NCBI GenBank assembly: GCA_037576195.1
Contig: CM075101.1
Span: 23,746,001-23,810,000, forward strand
DNA: 64,000 bases
From: Phytoseiulus persimilis
Taxonomy: Eukaryota > Arthropoda > Arachnida > Mesostigmata > Phytoseiidae
Direction of reading: 5' to 3'
How positions within the stretch are numbered: the first letter of the stretch is position 1; every line of letters begins with the position of its first letter. This document shows positions 6,601-64,000 of this stretch, piece by piece. A program made the position numbers and the translations under genes. Under the pieces are notes generated by a model, which was not told where the DNA came from, did not search any database, and saw only the letters and a list, made by a program, of their open reading frames with translations.

Positions 6601-9600
6601 AGTTTCCGGAATTCCATGACCGAAAAGGGTTTGAGGACCCTCTCCGGCTAAGTTGATTCCACTTTCATGAGCGCGAATTCGGGTGAGAGAGGTGACTCTC
6701 AGCATAAATTATTCAGACGGCATAGACGTTGGCAACTTACGGGTGATTTTGAGTTCGAAAGGTTCGGCTACTTCACCGATTTCATTTTTAGCCACGCAAG
6801 TATAGGTGGCTGCGTCATCGTCACCACAGTTTTTTATCAGCAGACTGTGAACATCGTTCTCAGTCTGGATGGCGACATTCCCGTTTGACTGAATCGACAC
6901 TCCATCCTTCAGCCTGAAAGGAGAAACCTGATGACTGAAAACGCTGCACTGATACGTTATCGGCTCACGCAGCGATCGGATCCAACATGAGCGTCGTCAG
7001 AGGCCCTTCTGTTGCAAAAAAAAACTCCCTCGCACCGGGCGCCGCCATGTTGCATGTGAAACGAGAGCAACCTATCACATCACCCAGCGCTCGTCAAAAC
7101 TCTCACTTCCAATAACCCGCCCACGAGGTTCGAATTTCAGTCTTCAACCCTCCTCAACAAAGTCGTGGTAAAACCAAACCTACCAAGTCACGTTGGGCTC
7201 GGGATCGCCCGAGACTTTGGCGCGGAAAATGGCCTGCTCTCTGCGCCTGATGAGAACACTGGTGGGTTTCAGGATGAAACGAGGCTTGGCTGTGAAGCGA
7301 GCGCATAGTCAGGATAAGCTTCTGAAGGAAATTCTCTTGCTACGAGGGGCAGAAATGAACAACAAAACTCACTGTGGAGGTTGAGCTCGGCCTTGCTCGA
7401 GACTTCGCCGTACGGGTTCTTAGCTATGCACTCGTAAATGCCCTGATGATCTCGTGAAGCACCATCGATTATGAGAATTTTGACTTCACCGTCGGCCCGC
7501 CCCTGTATAACGGAGTCGATTTGGACCGTTTCGCTGTTGCGTTTCCTGGGAAAACAGGAAAATGTCATTCACAGCCCGGGGGAGCATCAGTACGGGCGCC
7601 CTGTTCGAGCTCCGTAGATGGCGGCATCAAGTTTTTTGGCTCCAATGACCCTAGTGTCTGAGCTGGAGTCGCATCGTGAAATGTTTGACTCGATACACCT
7701 GATCAGAGAACGCTCCGAACAGGGTGAAGCGAGTCAGCTAGTTTAGGGATCCTCAGCAGGAAGCTTCTGATAGGGAGAAACTTCCGTCAGAGTCCCCAAA
7801 CAGAAACTCTAGCGCTAGAGTCAAGCGCTAGACATGAGCTTCAGAGCCGATAGAACTACGGGACACTCACCATGTGATTTCCGGTTCGGGAATTCCGCTC
7901 ACGACGGCTATGAAGGACACGCTTTCTCCGTGAGTTGCTTCAATGTCTTTGAGACCCTCGATGAACTCGGGTGGAGCTGTGAAGGAACGGAAGGCTTGGA
8001 GAGTTTGACTCATGTTGGGCATGGTTCCCGGTATTCATGAAACCAAGGGTCCATGCCATGCGGAGAGTTCCAGAGCTACATGAGGGTAGTACTCGGGGCG
8101 AGACCAAGGTTCGATTCCAAATCTTCCCACCAACTTCAGGGAGACGGTGCCTTCGCGTCCTTTTATCTCTCGATCACAGGTCTTCAATGTCACAGGAGGC
8201 AGCTTCAATGCGCCAACTTCGTGGAACCTCGAGCTCGAGAGAATTTCGATTTGCAATTTTAATAGATGAACATCGATCTTCTGTCGTCACTACCTCTCGG
8301 TGGGAACATGTGCTCTACTCGACGGTCGGAACAGAGGCCTCTTCCTTTGTCGATTTCTCTCAGAATGCGATCGCTGTGGTGGCCGTTTCCACCCTCGGAG
8401 CATTCCAGTTTTCGAGTACATTCTAGCTCGATCAGCGACGACGCCAGACTCTTCGAAGTCAGCGCGAGCTATCTCTTCACGAGATACATCCGCCTCTCGG
8501 AAAAACTCACCATAAACAGAAACTTCGGCCGATGACACAGCACAACCGATGGCGTTCGCAACTTCGAGTGTGTAGTTGCCAACATTTGACTTGTTGGATT
8601 CTTTGATGATCAGTTTGTGAACTCCATTGCTCGAAGAGATTTCGTATTCAGCACTGTCGACGATTTCGACATGATTTCGAGTCCATCGCGGAGTGGCCTC
8701 AGGGTTGCTCTCCGTCTCAGCAACGAGCACGACTCGCTCCGATATTTTGCAGCAAACGTTCTCAAGTTCTCGGATGAAGATTGGTGCAGTGAAAGACGAT
8801 TCCGAAACTGTAATGTGATTGATATCAGCGATCTTCCAGTGACCTGAGGAGCGTTAGAGTGGTTTCGAAGTCAATACACATGGGTGGGTGGGGCTCGGAA
8901 CTTCGACCTGAGTTCTTGTGTGCTCGAGTGAACGATATGCGCTCACTGAGACCGAACCAGAAGAACATGGAACGGAAAGGGAAACATCCAATCAAGCACG
9001 TCTGAATGAGGTCACCATCACGCAATCACCGTTAGTTGACTCAACGTTGAGGGCTCTGACGGAGAACGAGGAAGGCTCTAGATGGCTACCGCGTGCGGGG
9101 TTCCATCCCACACAGAATGGAAGCTTACCCGATAAGCAATGAAGAACAGCAGCAGTGAAAAAAAGTCGGAAAAAAATGACGAAATTCTCAGAACAGAGGA
9201 AGACGTCACTTCCGCAGCTGAGTTCGGATTAGGAGAAAAAGATCGGCGCGACAAGTGGAGCTCAGCGAAGCTAGAAGCATTTTATTGTGGTCGAGAGTAC
9301 AGCGTCTCGTAGAACTACTTAGTTTAGCGACTATGAGCTATTGCAATTGACGGAGCTAGAATGATCGATGATGGGCAACATTGAGCGTTAGTAAAGCGTT
9401 TCTCCACCACTTCGGAGATGCGTCCGATCAGCACAAAAGCACGAAGCCACCCAGAGTACTCACCGAGAACCTTCAGCTCCGCGGAAGATTCGTCTTTCCC
9501 GAACTTGTTCTCCACGACACATTTGTAGCGACCTTTGTCATCATCCTTACACTCCTTGATCACAAGAGTAAACTGAGCCTCGGCTTCCGATACCCGATAG

Positions 9601-12600
9601 TGTTTCCCATCGATCTGGATCTCGGCGTCGTCCTTCAGCCATCTGGCTTCGGGCTTGGGACTGCCGGCGTACTTGACCGTGAAGGTGGCGTCGGCGCCGT
9701 TCACCACGGACTGATCCTTCAGACCCTCGGTAATTTTTGGTTTGGCTGGAATATCCAACGAGGAGTAAGGGGTCGTGCTGTCAACAGATGGATGAATATC
9801 CTGAGAAGCATCGTTCTGTAACGGTGCAGGTGATGTAACCTCGCTCGAACGCACCGTTGACTGTGACTTTGGCTTCGGTTTCAGCCTTCCCGTGTTTGTT
9901 TTCTGCCTTGCACTGGAATTTACCGCCCGCCTCCGCCACGGCTTCCTTGATAACCAGAGTGTACTCTCCCTTGTCTGTCACCTCCTTCGTGGCATAAAGT
10001 TTTGTATCTTTGATTTGGATGCCATCATGGAACCAGCTGATTGTCGGCTCGGGTTTCCCCTCAACAACTACGTTGAGTAGGATTTCGACTTCGCCTTCTA
10101 CGAGTTGTCTGTCTTCCAAGCCTTTCGCGAACTTGGGTTTGACTGCAACATAGCCGAAGAATACGAGGTTTCATTTTCCGGCTCCCCAGGAACGTGTATT
10201 CCCATTCTACGCCACAGCATCGAAATTTGTATCAACCTACTCTTAATGGTTAGCTCGGCGCTGTCCTCAGCTTTGCCGAATTCGTTCTTGACAACCACCG
10301 TGTAGGCTCCAACATCATCGGGCCCGCAGCAATCGACCTACGACGAGGACAGGAAGTCATTCCCCCGTGGAGGCGTTGAAATTCTTGTTGTTGCCTCTAT
10401 TGATGCCTGATATTCACCGTTAAACTGTAGACGGTTGCCTCCTCCTCTGCGGCGATGTATTTCTTGCCATCGATGACTACTGCTTTCCCGTCTTTCAGCC
10501 ATTCAACCGTTGGTTTCGGTGAACCACTGACCTTCGTGGTGAAAGTCACCGTTTCCGTCAGAGTAGCCTCATAAGATTCCAATTTCTTGATAATTTTCGG
10601 TGCAGCTGATCGGGGCCGGATCATGGGGAAGGATTGTGCTCTTTAGGTGTAAGGGATGCCTCATCGCGTCGATAACTGCTTTCTGCTCCCATGTTGATTC
10701 GGGGCTCGCCACTATATTGTTGGAAGAAATGAAATTCGTCGGGAACTCACAGTTGACGGTGACGGCTGCATGACCGCTCTGGCTTCCGAGGTTGTTCGAA
10801 ATGACACATGTGTAACTTCCAGCATCCTCGGTTTTGGCTTTATCGACGAGGAGAGCGTAGCTTGCGGAGTCGACTTCGTGCACGAGTTTGACGCGTTCGG
10901 TGCTCGTCACCTGCTGACCGTCCTTGTACCACTTGACGTCAGGCGCGGGAACACCGTCGACCTCCACGTCGAGCTTCAGTGGGGTTTCAGTCATCACCGA
11001 GGCATCCTTGAGCTCTTTTCTGAATTTCGGGGGACCTGAGTCGAATACGGTTAGTTTCCATCGTCGGAAAAATTGGATCGATGTATCATCTGAAGTATGA
11101 GAGTTCCCAGAGTGATTCTCCCAAGTTAGGTACACAGCTTTCGAGTACACAGACTGTCGAGCTGGACTAGCTGATGAGAGATACTGAGGTTCCACTGCGT
11201 TGTGGAGTGTGGTGATCCCTGGCACGGACTGTTTCAGAAAATTTGTTTGCGTGTTTTGAGGTGCAGTGTGATGAAGCGCAAGGTGCAAGAAAGTATGCAT
11301 GGGGATCTGTCTAAGGTGGAACATAAGCGAAGCTCATCTCTCGATGTACGTCCCAAAGCGAGCCACAGAACATACATTTCACATGGAGATTGCAGTGCGC
11401 TTTAGCCGAACCGAGTTCGTTTTCAGCAACCACGTCATATCGCCCGCCATCTTCTTTCGTGACGCTTCGTATGACCAGCGTCATGCTTTCATCATCCTCG
11501 AAAAGGAATTTGTATTTCCCTCCGTGACCGCTTTCGATAAGCTTTTCTCCTTTCGTCCTGTCCGATTGGGGAATACGTTACCAGCGTTGTCGAAGAGGAC
11601 ATCCGAATGAAATATAACCCGAGAAGGTCGATTCACTTCACCCACCATACGATTCTTGGTTTCGGCCATCCGGTGATCTTCAGTTCCAGCATGGCGGATG
11701 CACCTTCGTTGACCTCCACATCTTCCATGTTCGCCTCGATCGTTGGGGCTGCCGGTTCGCGGTAGTTCACTGTGCCTGCAATGATGACTGTGCTTTCACT
11801 CCCGGAATCTGAAGTAACTCGCTCGATAGTTCCAATGAAGCGATCCTAGCAAAAATGGCGGCTCTGCCAAGATGCGGGCTGGGTGATGGTTGAAATATCT
11901 CAAGCCGGAGAGACGACACGAAAGAGACATTAACAAGAGTTTTGTGCAGTTGACGCGCAGAGAGTATGTTGAGAGTATGCAGTTCTACGAAGCATATTTC
12001 TATTTCTCGAAAGTCGTGAGGTTTGTTTCTATTCGCTTGGAGGGTTTCCTGTCAAGTGCATGCGCTCGTCTTCAAAGCAAATCGTGCAACAATGAGCCAA
12101 CGGAGACTTGTTTCCGCTGCTCACGGAACCGGAGGTTCAACGTGCACTCCACAACCCAAGACGAGACACTCATCGAACCTCAATGATCGACTCTACTCAT
12201 ATCTCAACGCCATGCAGTTAGCATTCGTGAGATTGCCATGCGCCCTCGGAGGAATATCCTTGAGTCTGCCCGCGCTCGGACTGAGTGCCGTCTGGGTATG
12301 AAACCGACAGAACGAGGTCACACCGACCTTGTACGGTGAGTTCCGCGGAACAGGAGATTTTCCCGCTGAATGTGGAGGCAACACAAGTGTAGATGCCCGC
12401 ATCTTCGGGCTTCACATGCTGGAACACAAGAGCCAGCGTGTCTTCGTCATCATTGAACGCCACCTGGAATCTCTCCGACGCTTCGAATTCTCTTCCGTCT
12501 TTGAACCTGTAACGAGAGACGGTTCCATCAATAGTCAGTCATCGACGACTCTTTCCAAAAATCTTGCAGAAACCGCCGCAAGTATCGCTCGGCTCACCAT

Positions 12601-25786: not shown

Positions 25787-26048
25787 ATCTGACCTTTCAG
25801 AGGCGTTCGCTCCGGGGAATTCTAAAAATCTCGAGACTCGTTGGAGGTCGCTCTCAGAGTACTCGCTCCGCGCGACTCATCAGAGATATTCTCATGACTC
25901 TTCCCGGCGATCTGGCGCGCAGGAAGTCTGACTTAAGAATGTCAACATCGGCCTTGTGAACGGAACCCGAGCAGACTTCTCTATCCTTTCGAAGTGGAAG
26001 AAGTTGTTGACCGTTCTGCGTTGCGGAAGAGCTCCACATTGGTTCAGG

Positions 26049-26816
26049 ATGCCGAGAAGGGTTTCGACCCGGAGCGAGGATCGTTCCAAAGGACCCATTC
26101 CTACGACGAGAGGAGATGAGCTTCCCGGAACTTCCGGAGGAAGTTCACCTGACGGCGGCTCGGGGAGGAGCCAGCGAGGAGCCATCATTTTACGAGGCCT
26201 CCCACGGAAATGGGATCTCGGTGAGCAGTCCGTGGTCTTGCTCACGCATCGCGACCAGTTCTTGAAGTGTTGTGGATGCAGTGCTGTCTCTTTGAAGTAC
26301 TTCAAGTTTCCGAAATGTGCGCATGTCATCTGTAGCGACTGCGTCAACTCGTCTTCAGCGAGGCCCCCGCGTGTATGCTCCTCGTGCCGAACTCGTTCGG
26401 AGGCTCAGGAACATGATCTGGCCGAAGATTTTCTTGAAGTACAGAGGATGAGGTGTGGCACGTGTGCGATCACCGGCTCGCTGGACGTCCTCAAAGGCCA
26501 CCTCCCATGTCAAGGCTCTCTGCTGGAGGGAAAGAAGCGGTCGAGCGAGCGCCACCAAAAGGCTAAAGCCCGTGCTGTCGGTATGTCTAAAGGAGCCATA
26601 CGTAGGCTGGCGAGACGCGGAGGCGTGAAGCGTATATCTGGCCTGCTCTACGACGAAGCTCGAGCTGTACTGAGAGTTTTCCTGCAGAACGTTATTCGCA
26701 ACGCGATAACTTACGCCGATTACGCGAACAGAAATACCATCCGAGGACTGGATGTCGTCCGGAGCCTGAATCTGCTCGGGAAAACATTGTATGGCTTCAA
26801 CGGCTTCCGGAAATGA
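26049..26816 (+). CDS. RING finger - histone H4 fold fusion protein, 255 residues
   Basis: An intronless frame runs from ATG 26049 to TGA 26814-26816, with open frame 93 bp further upstream. Residues 74-113 fit a C3HC4 RING exactly: C74-x2-C77-x12-C90-x-H92-x2-C95-x2-C98-x11-C110-x2-C113. Residues 136-154 form a second metal-binding motif (C-x2-C-x11-H-x2-C) like the zinc finger that follows RING in TRAF/SIAH-type ligases. From residue 168 to 252 the protein is a histone H4 fold: RHQK matches the H4 R17-H18-R19-K20 segment, [16 protein letters not shown] is identical to H4 33-48, and it ends TLYGFNG. By eye 48 of 75 positions match canonical H4 from G28 to G102. The H4 N-terminal tail (residues 1-15) is absent and K16 is Glu. 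RING domains recruit E2 enzymes, so an E3 ligase tethered through a histone fold is the natural inference. A cag just before the ATG could instead mark an upstream exon. Expression is unproven. Confidence 0.85.
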
Positions 26817-28946
26817 GCCCTCGCTAGATCAAGCTTTTCGGAATGACTTCACGCATCGATGCGTCTGGGAGCACCGTCAATAATGTTCTATCCGCTGTTT
26901 CAAGAGTTGCACGAACCTCTCCAGCGTATCTAGGATCCGCATTCTCAAATATCAGTAAAACATGGCATCTCTTGCACCGCCTGGAGCCAATACAGTCGCA
27001 TGGTTATGCGACAGGAGTGCAATGAATCCGCACCAGATGTATCTACATACTGAGAGGGGAAACCAATAAGTTGTTGGATACGATTCGCGTGGTCAGACGA
27101 GCTAATGCGAATGGTGTTCGATGGAGGATCTTCATTCTTCAATCCATGTTATTCCAATGTGTATTCAGTCTATGTTTCACAGCCGTAGCCGTCATTCAGT
27201 GATCAACGTGAATAAATCTTGGCTCCCGCTGAACTGTTCGTGTCGACTTGCATGAGGCCTCGAGCCGACGGCATGGAGCTGACTGTGATCCTATCTCTTT
27301 CTCCGAGAGTCCATCGAATGATGTCATCCGGATGTTAGTGTGTACGTAAACGAGGTATTTCACCAGACTGGCAGATATTCACGGGGGACCTTTGGACCGT
27401 AAGTGTCCCTGAGCTGATCACCTCCCGATGGAATCAGATTGTTACACTCAGCTGTCCTCGGAACTTCCCGGACACCTCTCTGTGGCTGGGGTTGCTCCGT
27501 TCCCCGAATTTTGGTCACCTCGTCTGCGGCCCGATAGTTGAACTAGTTCTTAGGTTATTCAAGCTCAGGCTGTTCGAGGGTCAGCCCATTCGGAGCATTT
27601 CAGAATCTCTTACGGGATTCCGAATACGTGATACGGTGACACCAAACCTGGACTAATAATTAGAGCTTCGAAGCTCAGGCATTCATCATTTCATACCTCT
27701 CATCTATGCACGAAGAGAAATGAGTCTCTGATGGCTGAGTTGATCAGTTTTCGTGGGAAAAAGACACAATTCATCAATCTTCACATTCATCCATCCATGC
27801 ATCCATGGATTGATGGCTGATGATTGATGGATAATGCCTGAACTTCCAAGCTCTGCGAACAATCTACTTTTGGAGCCGAATTTTCATTGAATGTGGATAG
27901 GGTGCCCTAGACGAGCTCGTGGCATTTCGAGAGGCCCAATAGCTCATCCACTCAAACTTCGTGGTCAATCACCAGCTCCTCTCAAGCCTGTCAACGACTA
28001 CCCACTCGTATCCTTGATTTCATACACGCACGAGAGTTCGCCCCGACCCGATTCTCACCGTCGCACGCGCACAGGGCTACCTCAGACAGAAGAAGACTAA
28101 CGTACGTATGGGGACAGAGATGACAACATCACGGGTTCAAGCTGCCCCAAGGTCCTGTACTTGTGAACATTTCTCTCCCTTTGCGATGGAACAGGCATTC
28201 CGCGTTTCAATCAAGTCTCACAGGGAATATTTTGCCAGCCATGATGAAAAGGGCAGTGAGTTCAACGCCTCAACAATTGCTTTCTCGAGCATGCCTCAAC
28301 CGAAGGAGCTTGTTTAGAATGAGTTTTTCTCCGCCATTGGGGGCAGGCCTTGAGGCAGAGTCCTGTCGAGATATGAACAATGACCCACTCACTCGGAATG
28401 AATCGCAACCACGAAAGACCGGTGGTCGAGTGAGACCTGGCGCGTGAAGGTTCAAGAAAGGGGTTTTTAGTTGGCCCACCAGCGGCTCGCCTCTGTTCAT
28501 GGCCTTTTTGTGCATTTTATGGGTATTTTATGGGTGCCTGTATTGTTCTATCGGGTGCTTCCCTCACAGAAGACTGCCGATCCCGCTCGCCGTGGTTGGT
28601 ATCATTTCATGTCTGACAGCTTCTCGGTACGCGTCGAGTCCTCTCGGGTAAGTCTCTGGCTGCTATGTCGGACGGAGCCTTGACCCCTCGACCGAATATC
28701 CTCCACGGGACTCGCATTTTCCAGCTTTGAGACCATGATTCACACGTTCATGATGGAAGCCACCTTAGCATCTTATATGTGATGAATCTCGATCTAGCCC
28801 CGGGGGCGAGCGAAGATGGAATGTCTCATGGCTGTCGGCCCTCCAAGGTCGTAAGGTCCCGCGTTCCCGAGCGCATCCCATATGCGATCGGCGCAATCGT
28901 GATCGTTGGTGCCACGAGCTATTTCAAAGGAATAATATCTACGCAC
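26817..28946. other. No gene recognised; short simple repeat
   Basis: Downstream of the RING-H4 gene I find neither a histone-type 3' stem-loop nor a close AATAAA (the nearest is near 27208). A short run of CATC/TGAT-rich simple sequence lies at about 27780-27835. ORFs are short and lack splice support. Confidence 0.4.

Positions 28947-53675: not shown

Positions 53676-64000
<10,325 letters not shown>

Follow-up and report, generated by a model that had tools for sequence, protein, structure and literature searches.

The window, by which we mean the whole stretch of 64,000 nucleotides analysed here from the mite Phytoseiulus persimilis, contains a stop-free frame of 255 codons plus a stop codon (26049-26816, +) in which a RING finger, a second zinc finger and a histone H4 fold follow one another. 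We call its product RING-H4 (P0001). A sequence-only reading of this DNA had proposed a single uninterrupted frame of 255 codons, and translation at these positions confirms it. An in-frame stop lies upstream at 25929, with no in-frame ATG from there to 26049, and inside the frame ATGs occur only at codons 1, 134 and 179. A full-length match is found at one place in the genome, on a contig of 54.7 Mb. The features of the locus are these:

26049-26816, + strand: RING-H4 open reading frame, based on its translation, on a full-length relative (P0003) and on a single full-length place in the genome.
26049-26186, + strand: residues 1-46, a fast-changing N-terminal arm, 14/46 identical to P0003, with an MPRR start in both proteins.
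26187-26267, + strand: residues 47-73, a leader with an LRGLP motif, similar to how several frames at other places of this genome begin.
26268-26387, + strand: residues 74-113, a C3HC4 RING, with eight ligands invariant in P0003 and RING structures matched by a profile of the N-terminal part.
26454-26510, + strand: residues 136-154, a C-x2-C-x11-H-x2-C finger, with ligands invariant in P0003, aligning with the finger of six related frames.
26511-26582, + strand: residues 155-178, a linker in the position of the H4 tail, 7/20 identical to P0003 at residues 159-178.
26550-26804, + strand: H4 histone fold, approximately residues 168-252, based on sequence matches to H4.
26595-26645, + strand: A183-L199, 17 residues equal to canonical H4 in the alignment (helix 1 and loop 1).
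27211-27216, + strand: AATAAA, a candidate poly(A) signal by motif only, starting 395 bases past the stop codon.

Several other coding regions share the window. Fatty acid synthase domains occupy 55300-61051 (+) in overlapping open frames at 55300-56535 and 56192-61051. A long reverse transcriptase frame with a partial endonuclease domain (61139-63961, -) looks like a non-LTR element, and immunoglobulin I-set domains are encoded by three open frames (8293-11333, -), probably exons of one or more genes.

The 3' side of RING-H4 differs from that of the canonical H4 genes. A scan of the locus found no histone 3' stem-loop (RF00032); at E <= 0.5 the stem-loop was found in four of the five scanned canonical H4 loci (L002, L004, L006 and L016, not L003), within about 80 bases past the stop. 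At the curated cut-off, L002 is the only one that passes among the four canonical H4 loci scanned. Without a stem-loop and with an AATAAA, RING-H4 would fit a gene whose transcripts are polyadenylated and which is not part of the S-phase histone programme.

As judged from its sequence, RING-H4 is very likely a real gene. We searched a set of 5.8 billion proteins, in which 4774 candidates were scored; among the best 120 of 3618 matches, P0003 (259 residues, source label 'lgn') is the sole full-length relative. Most of these 120 are predictions with more than one H4, and more distant RING-H4 proteins could lie beyond them. P0003 is identical to RING-H4 at 149/259 positions (58%), collinear over 100% of the query with both ends included, and keeps all 12 proposed zinc ligands; since the identity runs from end to end and the ligands are invariant, chance or assembly error is unlikely. 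Given 58% identity and the single copy in the P. persimilis genome, P0003 presumably comes from another species. Identity is spread unevenly, with 14/46 in the N-terminal arm, 66/112 at residues 47-158, 7/20 in the linker and 60/74 at residues 179-252, which reads as two domains under constraint with looser sequence around them. Used alone as a query, residues 1-162 gave no matches, but this search missed P0003 as well and is therefore uninformative on absence; a two-sequence profile of the N-terminal part found only P0003 among 537 candidates of limited length. The fusion recognised in the first reading is thus confirmed at the level of sequence, with a relative of full length, and the function then ascribed to it is supported in part.

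That reading had placed an H4 fold at about residues 168-252. The best match to a solved H4 spans residues 150-252 (E 6.5e-28), and most other solved-H4 matches begin at residues 163-168. By sequence this is a histone fold of H4 type, with no indels from helix 1 to the C-tail. For the whole of P0001, no histone model of Pfam came up at E <= 1, and for the last 93 residues the sole match was a weak one to the CENP-T fold (E 0.12). H4 tolerates very little change in animals; RING-H4 departs from this extreme conservation, being 58% identical to canonical H4 over query positions 13-103. The genome holds 24 matches to canonical H4, 20 of them full and encoding one identical protein through 20 different DNA sequences. 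Four matches remain: RING-H4 itself, two partial stretches on contig C4, one of which contains a stop, and a match on C2 that is full-length but also has a stop. The H4-like stretches at G000:C4:20242775-20243622 (-) and C2:16910175-16910483 (+), partial or stop-bearing, are possibly H4 pseudogenes. In a further frame of the genome (L087, G000:C91:5300-6700, -), repeats of the KLTKETPA type precede a histone fold (PF00125, E 1.1e-24). By eye this fold is H3-like, and the product is perhaps a long-tailed centromeric H3.

How has this H4 fold changed? Over H4 positions 30-92 (63 positions), canonical residues are kept at 40 in P0001 and 39 in P0003; the two proteins agree at 52 positions and have 17 changes in common. 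With the bounds that we assume for the H4 elements, canonical identity in P0001 and P0003 is 10 and 10 of 12 in helix 1, 7 and 7 of 7 in loop 1, 17 and 13 of 28 in helix 2, 2 and 5 of 6 in loop 2, 4 and 4 of 11 in helix 3, and 7 and 8 of 9 in the C-tail, where the LYGF motif of H4 is present in RING-H4. Helix 1 and loop 1, which face DNA, are together canonical at 17/19 positions in RING-H4. Compared directly, the two proteins agree at 19/19 positions in helix 1-loop 1, 21/28 in helix 2 and 9/11 in helix 3, and their common changes include D68N, H75Y, Y88R and K91N. So one face of H4 is frozen, and a second one had been rewritten by the time P0001 and P0003 split and has largely been kept since. 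The block A183-G198, first described as 16 residues identical to canonical H4, is indeed identical, but it extends to 17 residues (A183-L199). Its codons tell more: from A183 to G198, 9 to 13 of 16 differ synonymously from each of the 20 canonical H4 genes, and the block is preserved as protein, not as DNA. Over 70 codons, RING-H4 and canonical H4 differ with a mean pS of 0.70 and pN of 0.22. Because synonymous differences are near saturation, recent origin does not explain the frozen block.

The H4 N-terminal tail with its modifiable lysines is absent from the frame, in agreement with the original proposal that the RING part takes its place. Aligned without gaps, positions 16-29 keep 1/14 canonical residues in P0001 and 2/14 in P0003; a gapped alignment keeps a few more, and the earlier tail is absent. 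We reject the idea of a separate H4 gene that has a start and a tail of its own, given that no tail lies inside and the frame is continuous.

Which partners could such a fold still hold? According to a figure legend in PMC2572730, the H4 residues that interact with RbAp46 are Gln27, Lys31, Ile34, Arg35, Arg36, Leu37, Arg39 and Arg40; seven of these eight are kept in both P0001 and P0003, and Gln27 is changed. The H4 C-tail contacts Asf1 and, in nucleosomes, H2A, as stated in the available part of PMC3439350, and this Asf1-contacting tail keeps 7/9 residues in P0001 and 8/9 in P0003. For H2B, the accessible portion of a preprint (PMC12458469) gives K91, T96, Y98, Y72 and R92 as H4 contacts. Y72, T96 and Y98 are kept in RING-H4 and K91 and R92 are lost, a mixed picture (three of five contacts kept) from which a loss of H2B docking is not clear. 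The idea that the H4 fold may bind histone chaperones fits this pattern of conservation. Entry into ordinary nucleosomes, which had been proposed alongside, we consider less likely, given the missing tail and the rewriting of helix 3.

In the N-terminal half, the RING ligands (C74, C77, C90, H92, C95, C98, C110 and C113) and the C2HC motif (C136, C139, H151 and C154) sit where they had been placed, and all are invariant in P0003. Thus, the C3HC4 ligand pattern of a RING E3 ligase is complete, eight of eight, in both proteins. Neither P0001 (best 17.1 bits against a cut-off of 25.2) nor P0003 reaches the curated cut-off of a Pfam RING model. A profile of the N-terminal part searched against solved structures puts the RING proteins CBL, BARD1, PML and BRE1 on top (best E 0.0017). 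In CBL, residues touching the E2 include Ile383, Trp408 and Pro417; at the corresponding positions RING-H4 has Gly, Ser and Ser (0/3) and P0003 has Lys, Ser and Pro (1/3). An own ligase activity of RING-H4 is therefore doubtful, since the usual E2-contact residues are mostly not kept, and the E3 ligase suggested earlier is a weaker claim than supposed, its ligands being present and these contacts mostly lost. BARD1, among the top structural matches, is a RING that works through a partner. Structure prediction of the whole protein gave unusable confidence (mean pLDDT 36.4 with 2 sequences and 36.2 with 15).

This RING-finger half has relatives in the same genome. A search with residues 1-170 (E <= 10) found L041 (3.0e-4), L042 (0.010), L043 (0.077), L044 (0.13) and L045 (0.16), the last with no credible frame found. 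Starting from L041, L042 and L043, three more were found (L084, L085 and L086), and these six are what we call the related frames. They are single open frames of 250-420 amino acids with a similar leader, a RING and a finger, and without H4; most continue, by eye, into helical, coiled-coil-like and further sequence, and L085 is short. L042, L084 and L085 lie within about 5.5 kb of each other (G000:C3:18474294-18479792). RING-H4 has the same succession of LRGLP-like leader, RING and following zinc finger as the six. A profile of their N-terminal parts scores RING-H4 at 55.0 bits and P0003 at 50.0, against a best of 20.6 for 500 shuffles of residues 1-162 of RING-H4 in which every Cys and His was fixed in place, and a profile-to-profile comparison gives E 1.2e-14 (one comparison). 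Reverse searches with single sequences are weaker: L042 as a query reaches RING-H4 at E 0.041, and L043 does not list it.

TRAF proteins consist of a RING, zinc fingers, a coiled coil and a MATH domain, and in layout the six frames look similar to them. No TRAF or MATH Pfam model (E <= 1) and no TRAF solved structure was listed for them; the MATH model PF21355 marks four stretches elsewhere in the genome and none within the six. RING-H4 itself does not qualify as a TRAF, its finger being followed by no more than a short linker and the H4 fold.

One frame of the same genome joins a RING to another host fold. In L044 (G000:C2:33069302-33070342, +), a C3HC4 RING and a finger like that of RING-H4 are joined to a cyclophilin domain (PF00160, E 5e-24), a layout resembling TRIMCyp. 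It matches solved cyclophilins down to E 7.7e-30, TRIMCyp chains among them, and the alignment to these structures shows changes at several active-site positions of cyclophilin. Scored with the six-frame profile, the RING and finger of L044 reach 36.7 bits, and 500 shuffles reach 27.1 at most. As a query, L044 lists neither RING-H4 nor the six frames, and it is not listed from L042 or L043 either. In a tree of nine sequences, L044 groups with RING-H4 and P0003 (support 0.88; 0.80 for the RING-H4/P0003 pair) and has the longest branch. From these sequence comparisons a single origin of L044 and RING-H4 cannot be claimed, and L044 is a loose, possible cousin.

To explain these results we tentatively propose, at a little less than an even chance, that RING-H4 is a selected gene for an adaptor, whose H4 fold would dock H3 and/or H4 chaperones and whose RING half would bring a ubiquitin machine. 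It would be a RING-finger protein of the local set with H4 in place of their C-terminal half. Presumably transcribed and translated, its H4 part would pair with H3 and/or be held by H4 chaperones (RbAp46/48, Asf1), and the RING-finger half would bring the ubiquitin machine to H3-H4, whether soluble or chromatin-bound, more likely via a partner RING or a scaffold than by E2 binding of its own. A bolder version, possible and rather doubtful, is that the RING scaffold took up host recognition domains more than once (H4 and cyclophilin), in which case RING-H4 might be a degrader or adaptor that gets to H3-H4 in the guise of H4 and is the equivalent, in an invertebrate, of TRIMCyp, with chromatin or H4 binders as its targets.

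Could RING-H4 not be a protein of this kind at all? A chance fusion, a decaying pseudogene or an artefact of assembly or annotation would explain the one copy and the weak Pfam RING scores, and the eukaryotic histone fusions examined in PMC9145170 appeared mis-annotated to its authors, in the part of the text available. That objection does not apply here because the frame is unspliced, is read directly from the DNA of a contig 54.7 Mb long, and has an independent relative. P0003, intact and collinear at 58% identity and constrained domain by domain, leads us to reject an artefact or pseudogene, to which we leave a negligible chance. Very improbable, in our estimate, is a non-catalytic zinc-binding protein that uses its H4 fold merely as a dimerisation module and does not target histones. 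The loss of most E2-contact positions would suit it, and D68N, H75Y, Y88R and K91N in both proteins suggest a new partner surface; however, the RbAp46-binding stretch of H4, as defined in the legend cited above, is nearly complete.

The remaining alternatives keep a role for the H4 likeness. TRIMCyp displays cyclophilin A, and RING-H4 might likewise be a bait or decoy against viruses or mobile elements, its RING-finger scaffold presenting a host protein on whose binding an invader depends. We think this unlikely. The RING, similar finger and cyclophilin of L044 in the same genome, its 36.7 bits with the six-frame profile and its grouping with RING-H4 and P0003 (0.88) would fit a bait, and a viral H4 aimed at host chromatin is known (PMC9145170, available part). 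In our judgement, however, an H4 core that changes slowly between P0001 and P0003 is unexpected for a conflict gene, and L044 is a loose relative, not listed in reciprocal searches and on the longest branch of a poor tree. RING-H4 might instead act on chromatin in the germline or the embryo, entering nucleosomes or tetrasomes as an H4 whose tail is a RING and perhaps marking one parental genome for silencing or loss. The frozen, DNA-facing helix 1-loop 1 would agree with such a factor, whereas the rewritten helix 3, the absent tail and the changes of K91 and R92 argue against it, and we regard it as improbable. On its side are also macroH2A, which shows that a large extra domain can sit on a core histone (PMC9145170), and the loss of the paternal genome from male embryos of some phytoseiid mites (PMC6902594).

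If the adaptor reading is right, RING-H4 may serve as a natural model for steering the ubiquitin machinery to histones. Kept in two sources, it also offers a natural experiment on the importance of H4 surfaces other than the tail. The sequence-only reading knew of no described RING-H4 protein, and we found none in the accessible parts of the open-access literature on H4 fusions, RING with H4, TRIMCyp-like proteins and TRAF expansions.

How does RING-H4 compare with known systems? With canonical H4 it shares a fold free of indels from helix 1 to the C-tail, the identical block of 17 residues and the LYGF C-tail; it differs in having no N-terminal tail, an identity of 58%, no 3' stem-loop found and a fused RING and zinc finger. 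The RINGs of CBL, BARD1, BRE1 and TRAF2 are among the solved-structure matches of its N-terminal profile, with E-values of only 0.0017 to 0.1, and to our knowledge none of these proteins carries a histone fold. In macroH2A, H2A is joined to a macro domain that is C-terminal, whereas RING-H4 is an H4 with an N-terminal RING for a tail. Both unite a core histone fold with a large extra domain, macroH2A being described as a histone with a fused domain in the portion of PMC9145170 available. From the same portion, the bracovirus protein CvBV-H4 is likewise an H4 with a new N-terminal extension, but its fold shares about 87% identity with that of insect H4, and it keeps the tail lysines and has 38 extra residues, with no zinc finger mentioned there, in contrast to RING-H4. 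TRIMCyp (TRIM5-cyclophilin A; PMC4936896), like RING-H4, combines a RING with an unrelated host fold that forms the C-terminal recognition part; RING-H4 shows no B-box and has H4, not cyclophilin, so that the likeness is one of layout, not of antiviral function. In that layout RING-H4 keeps its family scaffold and has a different host fold as its C-terminal half, and this suggests that lineages other than primates, too, may give rise to RING proteins with swapped domains like TRIMCyp.
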